A stretch of DNA of 24,967 bases from a virus, in the IMG/VR virus record IMGVR_UViG_3300044858_001602, positions 1-24,967 of that record, one strand, 5' to 3'. The position numbers were made by a program, and so were the translations under genes. The first letter of the stretch is position 1, and each line of letters opens with the position of its first letter. Under the pieces are notes generated by a model. The model saw nothing but the letters and a program-made list of their open reading frames with translations, made no database searches and was not told the origin of the DNA. This document shows positions 8,501 to 23,373 of this stretch, one piece after another.

Positions 8501-8833
8501 ATGCAAAAGACCTACACAGAAGCGACAAAGCGAGCCATATTCATTGAAAAATACGGCTTTGCGCCCACCGGAAACCTCGGCGTTGATGCCGTGGCTGCTA
8601 TCATTCATTATGACCGCAAACGTGGGATGCCTCCGAAAACGATATATCTCTGCAAGGAGTATTTCAGCCAATTCAAGAAATTCGCTATGAGCAAGGTTGA
8701 TGACGAGCAAAAGCACATGATTGAATCTAGAGAGATACAATTAGAATTCGATGGCGTGTTGGTGAAAGATGCCGGAGTATTGACTAACAAAAGATGGTTT
8801 GTTGAATACATACCTGTTGAAGTGAATGCGTAA
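8501..8833 (+). CDS. Unknown virion-module protein
   Basis: This 110-residue protein lies between the gpF-like minor head gene and the gpG-like completion gene. The N-terminal half is helical (TEATKRAIFIEKYGF; CKEYFSQFKKFAMSKV) and the C-terminal part is beta-rich, with EIQLEFDGVLVKDAG and KRWFVEYIPVEV. A protein in this slot may be a head-completion or decoration factor, but I see no family motif and make no functional call. It has the best promoter-like sequence in the window directly in front, and its end overlaps the next start by 8 nt if that gene begins at 8826. Composition is normal for the virion genes. Confidence 0.75.
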   Translation: MQKTYTEATKRAIFIEKYGFAPTGNLGVDAVAAIIHYDRKRGMPPKTIYLCKEYFSQFKKFAMSKVDDEQKHMIESREIQLEFDGVLVKDAGVLTNKRWFVEYIPVEVNA

Positions 8834-9347
8834 GAATAAATTCAATATGAAGGCCGTCGTTAAGCGGTGGGAAGTTGCCAAAAAGCAACTGCCGAAGCTA
8901 TTGACCAACACGTCGAAAAATATCTTTGTTGATTCATGGAAAAAGCAAGGATGGGATGGTGTCAAGTGGCAGGAAGTACAACGCAGGACACCGGGAACGA
9001 AGGCATACAAAAGCGCGACAAAAGCAGCGCGGACGCGTGCAATACTCGTTAAGTCAGGCACATTGCGGAGGTCAATCGTTGTCAATTCGCAGACCTTCCA
9101 TCGGATGGTAATTTCAACTAATGTTCCCTATGCAGAGGTGCATAATGAGGGGTTTTCCGGCATTGTTCGCGTAAATGCTTATTCGCGAATGGGTAAAAGA
9201 ATTAAGGCACATTCTCGAAAAGTAAACATTCCGCAGCGTAAATTTATGGGGCATGGTCAAAGGGTTGAAAAAGAGCAACGCAACATCATTGGCGTGGCAT
9301 TGGCGAATGTATTTATGCCCGGAAAATTCAAATACAAAAGAGCATGA
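8826..9347 (+). CDS. Tail-completion/virion morphogenesis protein, Mu gpG-like
   Basis: This 173-residue protein matches the phage virion morphogenesis family (Mu gpG, P2 gpS). The visible pattern is a basic N-terminus, F.DSWKKQGWDGVKWQEVQRRTPG (about 36-57), the turn ILVKSGTLRRSIVV (74-87), VPYAEVHNEGFSG (99-111) and the terminal FMGHGQRVEKE segment. The family completes the tail or joins it to the head. Two starts are possible, ATG 8826 and ATG 8847; I keep 8826 because it overlaps the previous gene slightly, as is usual here, but the first seven residues are uncertain. Its stop overlaps the next start in an ATGA junction at 9344. The protein is strongly basic. Confidence 0.8.
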   Translation: MRKNKFNMKAVVKRWEVAKKQLPKLLTNTSKNIFVDSWKKQGWDGVKWQEVQRRTPGTKAYKSATKAARTRAILVKSGTLRRSIVVNSQTFHRMVISTNVPYAEVHNEGFSGIVRVNAYSRMGKRIKAHSRKVNIPQRKFMGHGQRVEKEQRNIIGVALANVFMPGKFKYKRA

Positions 9348-9847
9348 CACGGGAAGCTATCGAGGCCATAAAAGCACAGATTAAAGCGGAAACATCAATT
9401 CAGGATGTTCGCGTGTTTAATGACCAATTCTCAAAGATGCTTGTCGATGGTAACCCATTCGGGTACAACATACAAAGCCCGTCGGCATTAATCGAAGTGC
9501 AACCAACTGAGATAAGGCAGTTAGGCGACGGTGTGCAGATTTATGAGCCATTAAACATCACCATCCATATTGGCCAAATGGAGCTAAATGGCGACGGTGA
9601 TACGATGGATGAAACGCTGAGTATTTTCGACCTTAGGAACGAAATCTTTCTTGCCTTGCAAGAATTCAGTGCGGATACATTAGCGCGGATGTATCGCACA
9701 TCCGAAGAACCGGATTACAATCATGGCAACTGGTATGTTTGGAAAATGACTTTCACAACAACATTTACGGATTTTGGAGCGCAAAGGCCGCGCAATGCAG
9801 CAACAGCAGAAAACCCGACATTAACATTAACAGCATCAATGGAATAA
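9344..9847 (+). CDS. Putative tail terminator/connector protein (Mu gp37-like)
   Basis: This 167-residue protein follows the gpG-like gene with a 4-nt overlap. It has an N-terminal helical region (REAIEAIKAQIKAE), a beta region with SALIEVQPTEIRQLGDGVQIYEPLNITIHIG, a helix (ETLSIFDLRNEIFLALQEF), and a beta hairpin with WYVWKMTFTTTFTDFGA. This alternation fits the small alpha/beta fold of tail terminator or gp37-type connector proteins, which cap the tube and join it to the head. The fit is by pattern and position, not by a diagnostic motif. The next gene starts 1 nt after its stop. Confidence 0.55.
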   Translation: MTREAIEAIKAQIKAETSIQDVRVFNDQFSKMLVDGNPFGYNIQSPSALIEVQPTEIRQLGDGVQIYEPLNITIHIGQMELNGDGDTMDETLSIFDLRNEIFLALQEFSADTLARMYRTSEEPDYNHGNWYVWKMTFTTTFTDFGAQRPRNAATAENPTLTLTASME

Positions 9848-9848
9848 C

Positions 9849-10703
9849 ATGGCAAGAAGTACGCAAGAGATTAAATCACAGATGGTGGCCGAGAAGAACG
9901 CGCAAAGCGGCTTATCAGGCTTTACATCGAATTCACAGGCTTCACGGTGGGGCTTATTCCTTTGGGTGGTCGCGCAGACCATCAACATATTCGAGCAGAT
10001 GTTAGACATCTTCCGCTCAGATATGGAATCCATACAAGCCTCCGCGCGTCCCGGCACTGAGGCTTGGGTGCGTTGGAAGGTGCGCCAATTCCAATATGAT
10101 GCTACCGTTACTCAGGTGGCGCAATTAAACACCACGACGCTTACCGTTGAATATCCCATTGTCAATACATCCATGCAGATTATTACAAGGGTAGCGACGC
10201 AGGTAGCGCAAAATAAAACCGTGCTTGTCAAGGTTGCGAAGTCAGACCCGCCAACACCATTGGCGGCAGGTGAAGAAACGGCATTAGCGGCTTATATTGA
10301 TTTGTGGGGCGTTGCCGGAGTGAATTATCAAATCATTAACGAGGACAGCGACAAGATTGAAGTGGCCGGCACGGTATTCTATGATGGTCAATATAACGCG
10401 GTGATTCAACAATCAGTTGAGGATGCTTTGAGAAATTACCTTGCTTCTTTGGATTTTAACGGCATTATTACCGTGCAAGATGTTGTTGATGTAATTCAGG
10501 CCGTGCCCGGTGTAATTGACGTGAATTTATCACAGATTCGTGTCAGGAAAGATTCAATTCCGTATTCATCCGGCGTTGACCTTTACAACCTGTCATTAGG
10601 CGTTAATGCCGTGCAATATCGTTCCTTTGCCGGCTATGTAACCGAAGAAAATACCTCCGGTCATACCTTCGCAGATACCCTCACTTATTCACCGCAATAC
10701 TGA
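9849..10703 (+). CDS. Baseplate J-like protein
   Basis: This 284-residue protein resembles the baseplate J/gp47 family. A long N-terminal helical part (SRWGLFLWVVAQTINIFEQMLDIF) is followed by a beta region, then YDGQYNAVIQQSVEDALRNYL (near 190-210) and ITVQDVVDVIQAVPGVIDV (214-232), which match the conserved V..AL..yl..l.f...i...dv...i..v.GV.dv pattern at the family C-terminus. In contractile tails it forms wedge arms around the hub. It is unusual here because it lies before the protease and capsid genes, far from the other baseplate genes at 20-23 kb. It ends in a TGATG junction with the next gene. Confidence 0.75.
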   Translation: MARSTQEIKSQMVAEKNAQSGLSGFTSNSQASRWGLFLWVVAQTINIFEQMLDIFRSDMESIQASARPGTEAWVRWKVRQFQYDATVTQVAQLNTTTLTVEYPIVNTSMQIITRVATQVAQNKTVLVKVAKSDPPTPLAAGEETALAAYIDLWGVAGVNYQIINEDSDKIEVAGTVFYDGQYNAVIQQSVEDALRNYLASLDFNGIITVQDVVDVIQAVPGVIDVNLSQIRVRKDSIPYSSGVDLYNLSLGVNAVQYRSFAGYVTEENTSGHTFADTLTYSPQY

Positions 10704-11386
10704 TGAGTTTTTTCACGAATAATCTCAATACTCAGGCTCAGAATCTTTTGCCGCCTACCCGCAGATTGCCGGGATGGTTGGCATGGATGGCCGTTGTCAT
10801 GAAGCCCTTGCAGTGGCTATGGGATATTATCTTTTTCAGCTACAAAGAAGGAGATTACACGACCGCAGAATTTGACCCGCTTACAACTTATGCCGTAGGT
10901 GACCGCGTAAAATGGGGGAAGGGAATCTATGAAATGATTCTGCTTGCACCATCGGGAACAACACCGCTTGATACCTCCGTATGGACGTTGGTTCAAAGTA
11001 ACTTTATCGGCGTTGAAGTCCGCGCAAAATTCACGGCAGAGAAATTGAAGTTTGAGTATGCACTCAACTTATGGTTCGGCACGACATTCAGGCAACCGCC
11101 GCTTATTTCTGATATTTACATCGAGAGGCTAAACAATAACCTAACCGATTTCTTTGTCGGTTTTTCTGACGATGAAAGCTCGCTTGTTGTGTATGAAAAT
11201 GGTGAAGCAGAATCTTTTATTGGTGATGCCAATCCTACATACGGAGTGATTGATTTTACGATATGGTTTCCCGCAGCAGTCTTTGCAGCATTAGGCTCAA
11301 CAGACGCGGAACGCGAGGCCATTATTAGGCGGTTTGCCGATGCCATAAATACGGCAGGATTAACGTACAACATTGATACCTATTAA
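10703..11386 (+). CDS. Baseplate protein with an inserted carbohydrate-binding-like module
   Basis: This 227-residue protein follows the J-like gene with a 1-nt overlap, in the place of a gpI-type wedge partner. The N-terminus is helical and Trp-rich (GWLAWMAVVMKPLQWLWDI). Residues about 56-98 hold a short aromatic module (TTYAVGDRVKWGKGIYEMI, then a Trp) much like those in the adaptor at 5474. The remaining core continues with NFIGVEVRAKFTAEKLKFEYALNLWFG (near 100-126) and a mixed alpha/beta C-terminus. Glycan binding by the insert is inferred from its similarity to CBM5/12-type folds. The core itself I can only assign by position as a baseplate or fibre-connecting protein. Confidence 0.6.
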   Translation: MSFFTNNLNTQAQNLLPPTRRLPGWLAWMAVVMKPLQWLWDIIFFSYKEGDYTTAEFDPLTTYAVGDRVKWGKGIYEMILLAPSGTTPLDTSVWTLVQSNFIGVEVRAKFTAEKLKFEYALNLWFGTTFRQPPLISDIYIERLNNNLTDFFVGFSDDESSLVVYENGEAESFIGDANPTYGVIDFTIWFPAAVFAALGSTDAEREAIIRRFADAINTAGLTYNIDTY

Positions 11387-11388
11387 TC

Positions 11389-12234
11389 ATGAAACTAATT
11401 AAAACCTCAACCATTGCGCCGGGTTCGGCAATGCCTTTGAAAGGCGGTATGCTTGCCATGTTGCAAGACAATTCGAAAGAAACAACAACGCGGATGGTGA
11501 ACGGCCAAGACCTTTCATCATTATCGCGTATTACGGCATTATTTGGCCGATGGACAGAAAGCGGAGGAACGTATGCCATAACAGCCGGGGCGTTGTTATA
11601 CAACGGTGAAATATACCGTTGGCCTTCGGTGAATGTTACTCCCGGCGTTGGTCAGGTAGTGGTGGGAACTATCACAGAATTCAGCCAATCAGGAACGGGC
11701 TTAGACCCGGTGGAATTCTCTGATGCATCATTGCAGAATGTGAACGTTGAAAGGCGCATCGTATGGTCAGCCGGTGCATCCGGTAGCGGTGATTTTAACC
11801 TCAGCGCGGTTAAATTCATCAACGGCACATTCCCACAAGTTTACAATGCCGGTAATATGTATGCGCTTACCGGAACATGGACTTTGCCGGGCGGTGCGGC
11901 AGATTTCAGCGTTAATATAAGCACTCAGGGAGCATTCATTCACATTGACTTTGAGATTGTCAACGGCACGCTATCTAACAACACGACTTATTTCAGACTT
12001 GCCTTAGCGTCATTATTGAATGGAACGCCAATCGTGCCTAAAAGAAATGCACATGGCGTGGCATACATGACCAACAGCAATAACTCTCCGGCGAATGAAT
12101 TGGCAAGGGTTGAAATACCCGCAGGAACAAATGATTTGATATTCTATCGTGTTGCAGGTACATCACATCAGGCCGTTACCGGTGGCCTCGATGTTAAAGG
12201 CTCAATCATGTTTGAGAATGATTACGGATTCTAA
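11389..12234 (+). CDS. Putative tail fibre / receptor-binding protein
   Basis: This 281-residue protein is rich in Gly, Thr, Ser and Asn. It starts with a short conserved-looking stem (MKLIKTSTIAPGSAMPLKGG) and continues as beta-rich repeats (GGTYAITAGALLYNGEIYRW, GTWTLPGGAADFSV). This composition fits a phage fibre with an N-terminal attachment segment and a C-terminal beta-sandwich head, which would contact the host surface. It follows the two baseplate proteins and ends where the reverse-strand regulator ends: its TAA (12232-12234) overlaps that gene's stop (12231-12233 on the other strand). I see no enzymatic motif. The specific receptor cannot be inferred. Confidence 0.6.
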   Translation: MKLIKTSTIAPGSAMPLKGGMLAMLQDNSKETTTRMVNGQDLSSLSRITALFGRWTESGGTYAITAGALLYNGEIYRWPSVNVTPGVGQVVVGTITEFSQSGTGLDPVEFSDASLQNVNVERRIVWSAGASGSGDFNLSAVKFINGTFPQVYNAGNMYALTGTWTLPGGAADFSVNISTQGAFIHIDFEIVNGTLSNNTTYFRLALASLLNGTPIVPKRNAHGVAYMTNSNNSPANELARVEIPAGTNDLIFYRVAGTSHQAVTGGLDVKGSIMFENDYGF

Positions 12235-12491
12235 TATCCGTTCTTCGAGCGACGTTCAGAAAGTTCGTCGTATCTTTTAATCAGGCTTTGCCTTTCTCGT
12301 TCGGGAAGATTCTTGCAATAATCCTCTAATATGCGATTGACAAAATCAGCGGCAGCAATGCCGTTGTTTTCGCAATGTGCCATGATTATTTTGTAGGGCG
12401 CAGGCTTGCAGTACGTCTGTATCCTTCGCGCTGAATTATTCTTTATATCCAGCAATTCATCATTCGTCGGAAGTTTGCGATTTCTGCCCAT
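12231..12491 (-). CDS. Ribbon-helix-helix-like regulator, reverse strand
   Basis: This 86-residue basic protein reads from ATG at 12491-12489. After the basic start MGRNRKLP, residues about 20-58 follow an RHH (Arc/MetJ/CopG) pattern: a short strand (RRIQTYCKP), helix A (PYKIIMAHCENNG) and helix B after the turn (IAAADFVNRILEDYC). A charged C-terminal helix follows. The RHH match is by pattern, not by search. RHH proteins bind DNA as dimers, often to inverted repeats near their own genes. A perfect 8-bp inverted repeat lies about 90 bp away at 12575-12597, over the start of the capsid operon, and is an obvious candidate operator. The gene opposes the late genes and could keep the head operon silent in a lysogen. 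Confidence 0.7.
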   Translation of the reverse strand: MGRNRKLPTNDELLDIKNNSARRIQTYCKPAPYKIIMAHCENNGIAAADFVNRILEDYCKNLPERERQSLIKRYDELSERRSKNGY

Positions 12492-12598: not shown

Positions 12599-13726
12599 GT
12601 GGAATATCAGTACACCATAAATCCATTCAGCGAAAAGCCTGTCATGATGATTGACCGACACATCGGGTATCTCGATGGTGAAGGATATGGCATCATGGCC
12701 GGACAATTTCAACGCGAAATGCAGATGTTACTTGATGCAGGAGCGAAAGAAATTGAGATTCGTATGAATAGCATCGGAGGGCAGGTCTTTGAAGGCATGG
12801 GCATTTTCAACGCTATTGAAAGTGCAAAAAGCAAATGCAAAATCAAGATGGTCAACATTGGACTTGTCGCATCTATTGCCGGAGTGATTTTTCAGGCCGG
12901 TGATGAGCGCGAAATGGCCGATTATGCTTTAATGATGGTGCATGGTGTGCAGAATGCAGAAGGAGAACTCGAAGAAAAAATTACCGAAAGCCTTATCACC
13001 ATGCTTTGTCGTTCAGGCAAAAGAACGCGTAATGAAGTGGCTGCATTGATGCAAGGTGATAATTGGTTGACGGCTGCCGAATGCCTTGATGCCGGATTTT
13101 GCACAAGCATTACCAACGGTGATGCATCGGTGAGAAAGGTCATGCAATCCACAAAAGATATTGCAGCACGATACAAAGAAATTGCCGCAATTACGAACAA
13201 ATTGAAACACCAATCCAGCTATATGAACAAGCAGATTACCAACGCTCTCGGATTGCAGGAAGGCGCAGCGGAGGACATTATCGCACAGGCTATCAACAGC
13301 CTGAAAGAGAAGTCCGCCAAAGCGACGGACTCTCTGAAAGCAAAGGATGCTGAAATAAGCACCTTAAACACAAAGGTTGGCGAATTGACCAACACATTGA
13401 ACGCTACCATTCAGGAGCGCGACACTTTGAAAGCGCAGATTGATGAGGCCAACGCCGAGGCATTAGCCACGAATGTTGCCGCTGAATTGACCAACGCTAT
13501 CAATCTCGGAAAGATTGCGAATTCCGATGAGGCGCGCGCAAAATGGAGTGAAAAACTGGTTGCTGACTTCGAAGGAACGAAAGAGCTTCTGAACTCTATC
13601 CCTGCATCGAAAAAAGCACCCGAAGCAGTAACTTCATTTGGGGTAAGCAAAGAGGCAAAAACTCCAAAGAATTACGCCGGTTCTGTGATGCTGAAAATCG
13701 CAGAAAAATTGAAAAACAAAGCCTAA
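12599..13726 (+). CDS. ClpP-type prohead protease fused to a scaffold domain
   Basis: This 375-residue protein begins at GTG 12599. Residues about 15-200 have a ClpP/S49-like serine protease fold: EIEIRMNSIGGQVFEGMGIFNAI (51-73), the nucleophile region GLVASIAGVIFQAG with Ser92, MMVHGVQ with His115, and AECLDAGFC (160-168), whose Asp may complete the triad. Residues about 210-375 form a Lys/Glu/Ala-rich coiled coil (with EISTLNTKVGELTNTLN), typical of the scaffold attached to Mu- and HK97-like prohead proteases. It would assemble the prohead with the capsid protein and then degrade the scaffold. MNKQITNALGLQEGAAEDI at 209 could be an internal start for free scaffold. The inverted repeat and -7-like box sit directly in front. 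Confidence 0.85.
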   Translation: MEYQYTINPFSEKPVMMIDRHIGYLDGEGYGIMAGQFQREMQMLLDAGAKEIEIRMNSIGGQVFEGMGIFNAIESAKSKCKIKMVNIGLVASIAGVIFQAGDEREMADYALMMVHGVQNAEGELEEKITESLITMLCRSGKRTRNEVAALMQGDNWLTAAECLDAGFCTSITNGDASVRKVMQSTKDIAARYKEIAAITNKLKHQSSYMNKQITNALGLQEGAAEDIIAQAINSLKEKSAKATDSLKAKDAEISTLNTKVGELTNTLNATIQERDTLKAQIDEANAEALATNVAAELTNAINLGKIANSDEARAKWSEKLVADFEGTKELLNSIPASKKAPEAVTSFGVSKEAKTPKNYAGSVMLKIAEKLKNKA

Positions 13727-13748: not shown

Positions 13749-14735
13749 ATGGAAGCATTGAATATACAAGACACCACGTATGCCGGAGAGGCAGCGTCGT
13801 TGATGATTGTTAAGGCCGTAACCGGTGCTGATACAATTGATGGAGGTAACATCTACGTGCAAGATGGTATCAAAAAGAAATACACCATCCCAAAGTTGGA
13901 TGTTGCCAACTTCATTCAGGAGCGTCAAGCCGTACCAACATCACAGGGTGATGTAACGGTAAGTGCCGCATCATTAGAGCCGCAGGACTTCATGCTGTAT
14001 CTCGAAATGAATCCGCGCGATTTTGAGCAACATTGGTTTGCCGTTCAAATGAACCCAAAACTTTTGGATGCTGAATTGCCGCAGACATTTGAGGCATACT
14101 TCATGATGTACATTCTCGAAAAGTTGGATGAATTCATTGATGGTCAGATTTGGCAAGGCCGCACCGCGTATGGTGGAAGTTCACCTATTACTCCCGCCTC
14201 GGTCAATGCACCGACATCTGCAAGTCAGTACAAGTATTTCGATGGCCTTATCAAAAAGGCACTTGACAATACCACGGTTATTGATGTGTCATCTCCAGTT
14301 GCATTGACCTCATCCAACATTCTCGCAAAAATGGAAGCCGCGCGTGCATTGCTTCCTAAGGCACTTTTGAGAAAGTTCGGGCCGATGGGAACTAAGTTCC
14401 TTTTGTCTTATGAGGACTATGAAAAGTATGAACAGGCCTTGATTGACCTCACATACAAAGGGCCAAGCCCGGAGGGTGTTGTGAATGGAAAATACAAAGG
14501 TTACAATGTTGAACGCATTGCCGGTATTCCTGAAAATACCTTCATGGTAACCATCGCAAAGCCAACCACTGAATCCAATCTTTGGTTGGGTATGAACTCG
14601 ATGGAGGACAATCAGTTGGAACTGAAAAGACTGCAAGCCAATGCAGAACTTTATTTCTGCAAGGGCTTGTTTAAGATGGACGTTCAAATCGGATGGGGCG
14701 ACCAATGCGTATTGTACACCACTCAAACCGCGTGA
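13749..14735 (+). CDS. Major capsid protein
   Basis: This 328-residue protein lies directly behind the protease/scaffold gene and has the strongest ribosome-binding site in the window. Its length and pattern fit an HK97-fold capsid: an N-terminal arm, a MYILEKLDEFIDGQIWQG segment (about residues 118-135), KAARALLPKALLRKFGPMGTKFLLSY-type helix and strand (here MEAARALLPKALL...), NGKYKGYNVERIAGIPENTFMV (near 247-268) and a closing ELYFCKGLFKMDVQIGWGDQCVLY. It would form the icosahedral shell. The gene ends with TGA at 14733-14735, but the same frame continues for 14 codons of Gly/Tyr/Asp-rich sequence to TAA at 14778-14780. Read-through may therefore make a longer minor form. Confidence 0.85.
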   Translation: MEALNIQDTTYAGEAASLMIVKAVTGADTIDGGNIYVQDGIKKKYTIPKLDVANFIQERQAVPTSQGDVTVSAASLEPQDFMLYLEMNPRDFEQHWFAVQMNPKLLDAELPQTFEAYFMMYILEKLDEFIDGQIWQGRTAYGGSSPITPASVNAPTSASQYKYFDGLIKKALDNTTVIDVSSPVALTSSNILAKMEAARALLPKALLRKFGPMGTKFLLSYEDYEKYEQALIDLTYKGPSPEGVVNGKYKGYNVERIAGIPENTFMVTIAKPTTESNLWLGMNSMEDNQLELKRLQANAELYFCKGLFKMDVQIGWGDQCVLYTTQTA

Positions 14736-14780
14736 ACTGGTAACGGATACTCAGACGGGTACGGAGATGGATACGGCTAA
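14733..14780 (+). other. In-frame Gly/Tyr-rich extension after the capsid TGA
   Basis: Reading past the TGA in the capsid frame gives TGNGYSDGYGDGYG and then TAA. The repeated GYxDGYG pattern is not expected from random intergenic DNA. It could be a read-through tail on a few capsid subunits, or the remnant of a formerly longer gene. The base after the TGA is A, a context often leaky in bacteria. Confidence 0.5.
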
Positions 14781-14840
14781 CAATAAGAACCGATTCACTC
14801 CGTGCCTTTTTTCAAAATCAAAAATCAAAAATCAATCGAA

Positions 14841-15287
14841 ATGAAAAAGCTTCTTTCACTCTGCTTTCTTCTTGCCTTCACGCTCTCAGCGTTGGCACAA
14901 TCCACATCACCGCGCTTTGGCACGGCGAAAAATCAGGATAATACCGGAAGGGTATTGACCTACAAACTTATCACCACGAATGATGATGCCGGCAATGATA
15001 CCATTACCGTGAATGCAAATGCCTGGCAGACCATTGTGAGGCCTTCGAGCAATATTACGGATAGCGTCAACATCAAAGCCTCACTCACTAATTGTTATCT
15101 TGGTGATGAGCTTTATGTAATCGTTTCAAAAGGCACTGGCGCGGGGGCTATTAGATTTCCTTCGGCATCCTTTACGAATGATGCCGCTGCCAATAGATAC
15201 ACGATAGCTGCAAATAAAACTGCCGTTTTTTACTTCAAATTCAACGGCAGCAAGTGGCACATGGTCAGCAAAACAATTCAGCCCTAA
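14841..15287 (+). CDS. Secreted-type beta protein with signal peptide, behind the capsid gene
   Basis: This 148-residue protein starts at ATG 14841, after an A-rich leader containing short TCAAAAA repeats (14812-14835). Residues 1-20 (MKKLLSLCFLLAFTLSALAQ) form a classic Sec signal peptide with an ALA-type cleavage site near 18-20 and no lipobox Cys. The mature part is beta-rich (GRVLTYKLITTNDD, NIKASLTNCYLGDELYVIVS, NKTAVFYFKFNGSKWHMVS), like a small jelly-roll or Ig-like domain. By position it could be a capsid decoration or head-fibre protein, but cytoplasmic capsid assembly does not need export. It may instead be a surface protein made in late infection or a lysogenic-conversion gene. I do not recognise the family. 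A longer ORF from 14802 is rejected because it hides the signal peptide. Confidence 0.75.
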   Translation: MKKLLSLCFLLAFTLSALAQSTSPRFGTAKNQDNTGRVLTYKLITTNDDAGNDTITVNANAWQTIVRPSSNITDSVNIKASLTNCYLGDELYVIVSKGTGAGAIRFPSASFTNDAAANRYTIAANKTAVFYFKFNGSKWHMVSKTIQP

Positions 15288-22572: not shown

Positions 22573-22870
22573 ACTTTTTGATATCGCAGAGCAAGACATG
22601 GATATTGTGGCCGTGGATGGAGATTTCGGTATTCAGGCAAGCAATAATCAGCATATCCGGGACATTGTTGAGGCATTTCCCGGATGGTGGAAAGAATACC
22701 CTACAATGGGATGCAGTGCTATGTTGTATGTAAGCGGCAATACCAATTCACAGCAGTTTCAGCGGATTGTTCAGGAACAATTACAGATTGATGGATTCAG
22801 TGATATTCTCATTCAGCCTTTAATTGTTGACAATCAATACACGTACAATATCACAGCAACAAGAGAGTAA
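22562..22870 (+). CDS. Baseplate wedge protein, gp25/gpW-like
   Basis: This 102-residue protein matches the gp25-like wedge family in size and pattern: VDGDFGIQASNNQHIRDIVEAFPGWWKEYPTMGCSAMLYV (residues about 18-57), with the QHI...PG..KEYP.MG core, followed by QQFQRIVQEQLQIDGF and a beta end with NQYTYNITATRE. In contractile tails gp25 nucleates sheath polymerisation at the baseplate and pairs with the J-like protein, which here is encoded 12 kb upstream. It overlaps the spike gene by 11 nt and the next gene by 1 nt (TAATG). Confidence 0.75.
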   Translation: MATELFDIAEQDMDIVAVDGDFGIQASNNQHIRDIVEAFPGWWKEYPTMGCSAMLYVSGNTNSQQFQRIVQEQLQIDGFSDILIQPLIVDNQYTYNITATRE

Positions 22871-23373
22871 TGGAGTATCAGGTAAAAGAAGGTCAAAGCA
22901 TCTATGATGTGGCCGTGGCTACATACGGCGCGGCATCTTTTGCCGTGAAGCTATTGAAAGATAACCCTTTAATTTTTCCCGATATTAATACGGTCAACGT
23001 CGGTACGGTGCAGTATGATGAATCACTTGTTATTCGTGTCATTCCGGGCGTTCAATTAGTATCCGATGCCGTACCATCAGGTGCGCGGTCAATAACCGGC
23101 CAAGAAAATCAAAGCATCTTTGACCTTGCATTGCTTACCGTCGGAACGATTGACCGAGTGGTAGAAATGGTAAGAAATGCAGACCGTAAACCATTATCAT
23201 ACCTTGCTGCCAATGGCCGCGTTTTTCCGTTTAACTTAAATTCAGTATCAGACATTAATCTCTATTTATTTTTGAAGCGATTAGGCACATCTATTGGTGG
23301 AACTATTGACCCGAATAGCAACACGACAGGAAAAGCCTACAATAACCAAGCGTACAGCAACGGATACAATTAA
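22870..23373 (+). CDS. LysM-like baseplate/tail protein
   Basis: This 167-residue protein contains two LysM-like segments: YQVKEGQSIYDVAVATYG with VKLLKDNP (residues 3-34), and ITGQENQSIFDLALLTVG with VEMVRNAD (near 75-108). Both follow the V..GQS..D.A...YG...........N pattern of tail LysM and gpX-type proteins. In phages such domains hold the hub and wedge together and may touch peptidoglycan during entry. The C-terminus is Asn/Gly/Tyr-rich (NTTGKAYNNQAYSNGYN). The gene lies between the gp25-like wedge and the fibre, with a 1-nt overlap in front and 6 nt behind. Peptidoglycan binding is family knowledge, not shown here. Confidence 0.7.
   Translation: MEYQVKEGQSIYDVAVATYGAASFAVKLLKDNPLIFPDINTVNVGTVQYDESLVIRVIPGVQLVSDAVPSGARSITGQENQSIFDLALLTVGTIDRVVEMVRNADRKPLSYLAANGRVFPFNLNSVSDINLYLFLKRLGTSIGGTIDPNSNTTGKAYNNQAYSNGYN

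Follow-up and report, generated by a model that had tools for sequence, protein, structure and literature searches.

Minor extended capsid proteins of tailed phages have so far been known as products of frameshifting, and stop codon read-through as the route taken by phage Qbeta. In Qbeta, where Trp is inserted at the stop and the extension is flexibly attached, the minor coat protein A1 is made by read-through of the coat gene UGA at a frequency given as about 1 in 15 (PMC8067240). Extended capsid forms that arise by frameshifting have been described for T7, T3, A2, A118, A500 and PSA (PMC5009743). Our literature search, with most subscription journals outside it, returned no description of a tailed-phage capsid extended by read-through. 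Here we describe an HK97-fold capsid gene whose UGA is followed in frame by a short Tyr/Gly tail. If read-through takes place, this UGA-tail cassette would represent a second route in dsDNA phages, with an extension that is invisible to standard gene callers; in hosts of the Bacteroidota type it would also serve as a natural reporter of UGA read-through, and it would provide a small motif that can be traced on virion proteins.

The window, that is the whole stretch of DNA that was analysed, is an IMG/VR virus record of 24,967 bases from environmental DNA. A search for DNA-level similarity to any phage record found none. The gene content is that of a contractile, Mu-like tailed phage and includes a Mu-type portal, Mu F, head protease, capsid, tail sheath, tape measure and baseplate hub. 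The major capsid protein gene (13749..14735, + strand) encodes 328 amino acids and ends in UGA. Its product matches PHROG 11320 with an E-value of 4e-54 and, more weakly, head proteins; its homologues are annotated as major capsid protein in hankyphage-type records. A sequence search of the PDB gave no match. An AlphaFold model (mean pLDDT 76.9, pTM 0.75) assigns the protein to the HK97-like fold, since the best Foldseek matches (E about 1e-9) are shells of the HK97 fold, among them HK97 itself, with P4 procapsid, R4C and encapsulins also matched. The initial annotation had read an in-frame TGNGYSDGYGDGYG and a TAA behind the capsid TGA, and we found coordinates and frame to be exactly as claimed: the putatively leaky UGA (14733..14735, + strand) is followed by an A, the extension of 14 codons occupies 14736..14777 (+ strand) and its UAA lies at 14778..14780 (+ strand). 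The tail is disordered in the AlphaFold capsid model.

As in Qbeta, the proposed minor coat form would result from read-through of the UGA of the coat gene. However, Qbeta, an RNA phage, has an unrelated coat fold, and its extension is long (about 200 aa) and folded, whereas the present case concerns a tailed dsDNA phage, the HK97 fold and a putative low-complexity tail of 14 residues. A minor, C-terminally extended major capsid protein of a tailed phage is also what T7 and T3 (10A/10B), Lactobacillus phage A2 and the Listeria phages A118, A500 and PSA have. These phages differ in that they use −1 or +1 frameshifting and in that their extensions are longer, some of them Ig-like; here the extension is in the frame of the main capsid ORF, unlike the extension of T7 10B. 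Also close are the hankyphage (Bacteroides phage p00, BK010646) and related Mu-like Bacteroidota phages, which share with the window a homologous capsid (about 28% identity), the Mu-type portal and Mu F. Where Bacteroides-type capsid genes were examined in host genomes, their stop was TAA or TAG and no tail was present.

We compared the capsid stop between the window and its relatives. Eight IMG/VR relatives (L001–L008) have capsids of 84–88% identity. Two of them, L007 and L008, which come from different samples, are almost identical to each other and show 84% capsid amino acid identity to the window, also have TGA-A at the end of the gene, then exactly 14 codons (NTSAYDSGYGAGYD) and a TAA at the matching position. 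In L001–L006 a TAA follows the same residue (TTQTA), with no tail and a hairpin directly behind. Of about 140 other homologues, with identities as low as about 30%, the great majority have TAA as their stop and the others TAG, apart from a sole TGA (L223) that forms an ATGA overlap with the next gene; a Gly-Tyr tail, whether fused or in frame past the stop, is absent from all of them. Pattern scans across IMG/VR for a TGA plus Gly-Tyr tail at a real gene end yielded only L007 and L008, all other hits being chance matches, and a scan for YTT(x)TA-TGA ends yielded no further capsid relative. A scan of genome contigs with the single protein found no relative; an alignment-based scan found 46 distant relatives, none with a tail. 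A search of about 800 host genomes gave a few extra capsids, which were left out of the stop comparison. Among capsid homologues, non-overlapping UGA and tail thus go together. In the initial annotation, homologues lacking an in-frame extension had been set down as evidence against its reading, and the comparison cuts both ways: the homologues ending in TAA indeed lack one, and the only homologues with a non-overlapping TGA carry one that agrees with that of the window in length and pattern. The capsid tree places the window outside (L001–3,(L004–6,L007–8)), which implies either two losses, each with a change to TAA, or horizontal or repeated gain; in every one of these scenarios UGA and tail changed together. 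That tail-bearing capsids are confined to two independent lineages counts against read-through.

Next to this association, the use of UGA elsewhere in the window is informative. Where a gene end is free, the stop is TAA or TAG, and the other UGAs belong to overlapping or abutting genes or are doubled (TGATGA after the terminase), with the uncertain small ORF 249–608 as the exception. The capsid UGA is the only one in the window that ends a confidently called gene without overlapping or abutting the next gene and without a tandem stop. For the capsid gene, presumably one of the most highly translated, a lone UGA as the stop is therefore out of character. A reassignment of UGA to an amino acid, by which all capsid subunits would be tailed, is suggested by nothing beyond the open frame, and we regard it as extremely unlikely: the genes for terminase, portal, tape measure and baseplate have their UGA exactly where the orthologues end, in the window as well as in relatives including G007 (for the genes on its contig), and neither a suppressor tRNA nor any other tRNA was found in the window or the relatives' contigs, which are fragments. 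Of the two statements made earlier on this point, the doubt about genome-wide recoding thus agrees with our data, and the suggestion that UGA is decoded as an amino acid in this phage is rejected on a genome-wide scale. A late-expressed suppressor of phage or host could possibly raise the decoding of UGA. Selenocysteine insertion finds no support, as a search for a SECIS element after the UGA gave no Rfam match at E-values up to 5, only chance matches to unrelated families.

We then asked how far the tail behaves as a peptide. The motif [AGS]Y-x(2,3)-[AGS]YxxGYx-stop covers both capsid tails and the C-termini of a second virion gene (see below). Among 3,000,000 random spacers of 15 codons with the composition of the window, 1 had the motif before its first stop, and among 3165 ORF ends (ORFs of at least 100 codons in 2.9 Mb of loci, tail-bearing capsids excepted) none was followed by it, figures that are generous because the motif was defined post hoc, after the tails had been seen. 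With this reservation, the view that so regular a Gly/Tyr/Asp pattern is unlikely in a spacer holds. Between the tails of the window and L007/L008, 22 of 42 bases differ (4, 8 and 10 at codon positions 1, 2 and 3), and yet Tyr 5, 9 and 13 and Gly 8, 10 and 12 are identical and no stop arises. In neutral simulations with random placement of equal changes, at least six identical residues without a stop were retained with P = 0.004 and all three Tyr with P = 0.0008. As 57% of the four-fold sites of the capsid gene have diverged between the window and L007/L008, the tail region had time to randomise. These data bear on the proposal that the tail is the decaying vestige of an ancestral longer capsid truncated by the TGA. 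Its absence from some relatives indicates that it is dispensable in some lineages, as a vestige would be; a fused tail, however, is found in no homologue, the conserved last residue is common to the close relatives, and TGA, length and pattern have all been retained in spite of a synonymous divergence near saturation. We consider such a truncation, which the initial annotation had proposed as a recent event, very improbable.

The conservation could also reside in the DNA. The tail DNA is a 12-bp GGNTAY repeat and one of its antisense frames retains as many identities as the sense frame, so that the substitution pattern alone cannot separate constraint on the DNA from constraint on the peptide. 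Four features speak for a peptide, namely the frame, a constant length closed by a TAA, the link to UGA and the occurrence of the motif in the second gene; we are thus dealing with an open extension that appears conserved at the peptide level in two lineages, with a possible contribution of DNA constraint. Furthermore, a terminator-like stem-loop with a U-run (14757..14812, + strand; folding z −3.6) overlaps the tail. In both tail-bearing phages it starts 20–21 nt past the UGA, its 5′ arm lies in tail codons 8–11 and its loop contains the tail UAA; the U-run of the window is only short in L007. Most relatives have a hairpin of unrelated sequence about 6–14 nt past the capsid stop, and for this reason the stem-loop is best seen as the ordinary hairpin that the family carries after the capsid gene. 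An Rfam search yielded nothing credible. Classical read-through stimulators lie closer to the stop codon than this stem-loop does, and no such stimulator was seen. The location of one hairpin arm within the extension suggests termination at the UGA by most ribosomes.

Given this hairpin, the sequence after the stop might be an untranslated nucleic-acid element, either an arm of a terminator or processing hairpin or a tandem GGNTAY protein-binding repeat, with the Gly-Tyr reading being incidental. Both tail-bearing phages have a strong stem-loop whose 5′ arm occupies tail codons, the window has a U-run, hairpins occur after the capsid stop throughout the family and the repeat has a 12-bp period, all of which would fit. 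However, tail-less relatives have hairpins whose arms are unrelated and which lack GGNTAY repeats, the arm does not contain two of the three Gly-Tyr units, which are situated upstream of it or in the loop, and such an element predicts neither the open frame and its register nor the length of 14 codons common to both lineages nor the tie to UGA; the tail motif also ends a protein elsewhere. Overall we judge the element to be an unlikely explanation, although it is the foremost competitor of read-through. A regulatory variant would have ribosomes that pass the UGA cover the 5′ arm of the hairpin, so that transcription continues into the downstream tail genes and the peptide is a by-product. It would suit the position of the arm within the tail frame in both lineages and the U-run of the window, but it leaves the conservation of Gly and Tyr in the loop and the motif in the second gene unexplained and sits badly with the short U-run of L007, and we give it hardly any credence.

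The second gene (22870–23373) belongs to the baseplate block and encodes another virion protein. Its C-terminus TGKAYNNQAYSNGYN (23326..23370, + strand) carries the Tyr-tail motif with no intervening stop. Searching the viral collection with the protein of this gene gave nothing, and the orthologues come from the contigs of the relatives. They end in TGKSYQDAAYSSGYD (G002 and G003), TGKSYQENAYSSGYN (G005) and TGKAYKDDSYTNGYN (G007), so all five phages that hold the gene, including the window, have a Tyr-tail C-terminus; phages without a capsid tail are among them. As the tail of the second gene is always translated, a C-terminus of this kind is a real protein feature of the phage group.

Taken together, the capsid locus is probably best explained by a programmed leaky UGA, by which a minority of the capsid subunits would be extended. 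This was one of the readings offered by the initial annotation, and it fits best. In E. coli, tRNA-Trp is reported to misread UGA particularly readily when an A follows (PMC5289835, citing Engelberg-Kulka 1981), and on this basis leakiness is predicted for the UGA-A of both lineages. Most ribosomes would stop at the UGA and release a subunit of 328 residues. A minority would insert an amino acid, most likely Trp by means of near-cognate tRNA-Trp, translate 14 more codons and stop at the UAA, which would yield a subunit of 343 residues with a flexible Tyr/Gly tail at its C-terminus. In HK97-fold shells the C-terminus usually faces outward, and the tail would then be displayed sparsely on the surface of the head. 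Since the capsid tail and the baseplate-block protein share their C-terminal motif, both may present the same sticky aromatic ligand, directed at a phage partner or at a host glycan or surface. It is conceivable, though we would put it at somewhat below an even chance, that one and the same Tyr/Gly tag is used at two copy numbers, on few capsid copies by UGA read-through and constitutively on the baseplate-region protein.

Several further observations were made in the surroundings of the capsid gene. At 8501–12234, tail- or baseplate-looking genes stand between the Mu F-like head gene and the genes for head protease and capsid; this gene order is unusual and seems to be kept in G003–G005. Between tail-type genes and the head protease an ORF of 86 amino acids lies on the − strand (12231–12491), and this antisense reading looks conserved in G002, G003, G004 and G005. 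For the head protease/scaffold gene (12599–13726) the best match in G004/G005 ends at residue 174 and is followed by unrelated sequence, which suggests a domain swap or an insertion. A 7-base tandem repeat (AAAATCA, 3.1 copies, 14814–14835) is located just upstream of the gene that follows the capsid. This gene (14841–15287) has a signal-peptide-like N-terminus, MKKLLSLCFLLAFTLSALAQ, that is kept in close relatives; apparent homologues in L010 and L230 start without it, for example with MATSRIVSGANQDNTSRV. Should the product be a decoration-type protein, or be exported, a signal peptide that varies in this way would be unusual for a phage.
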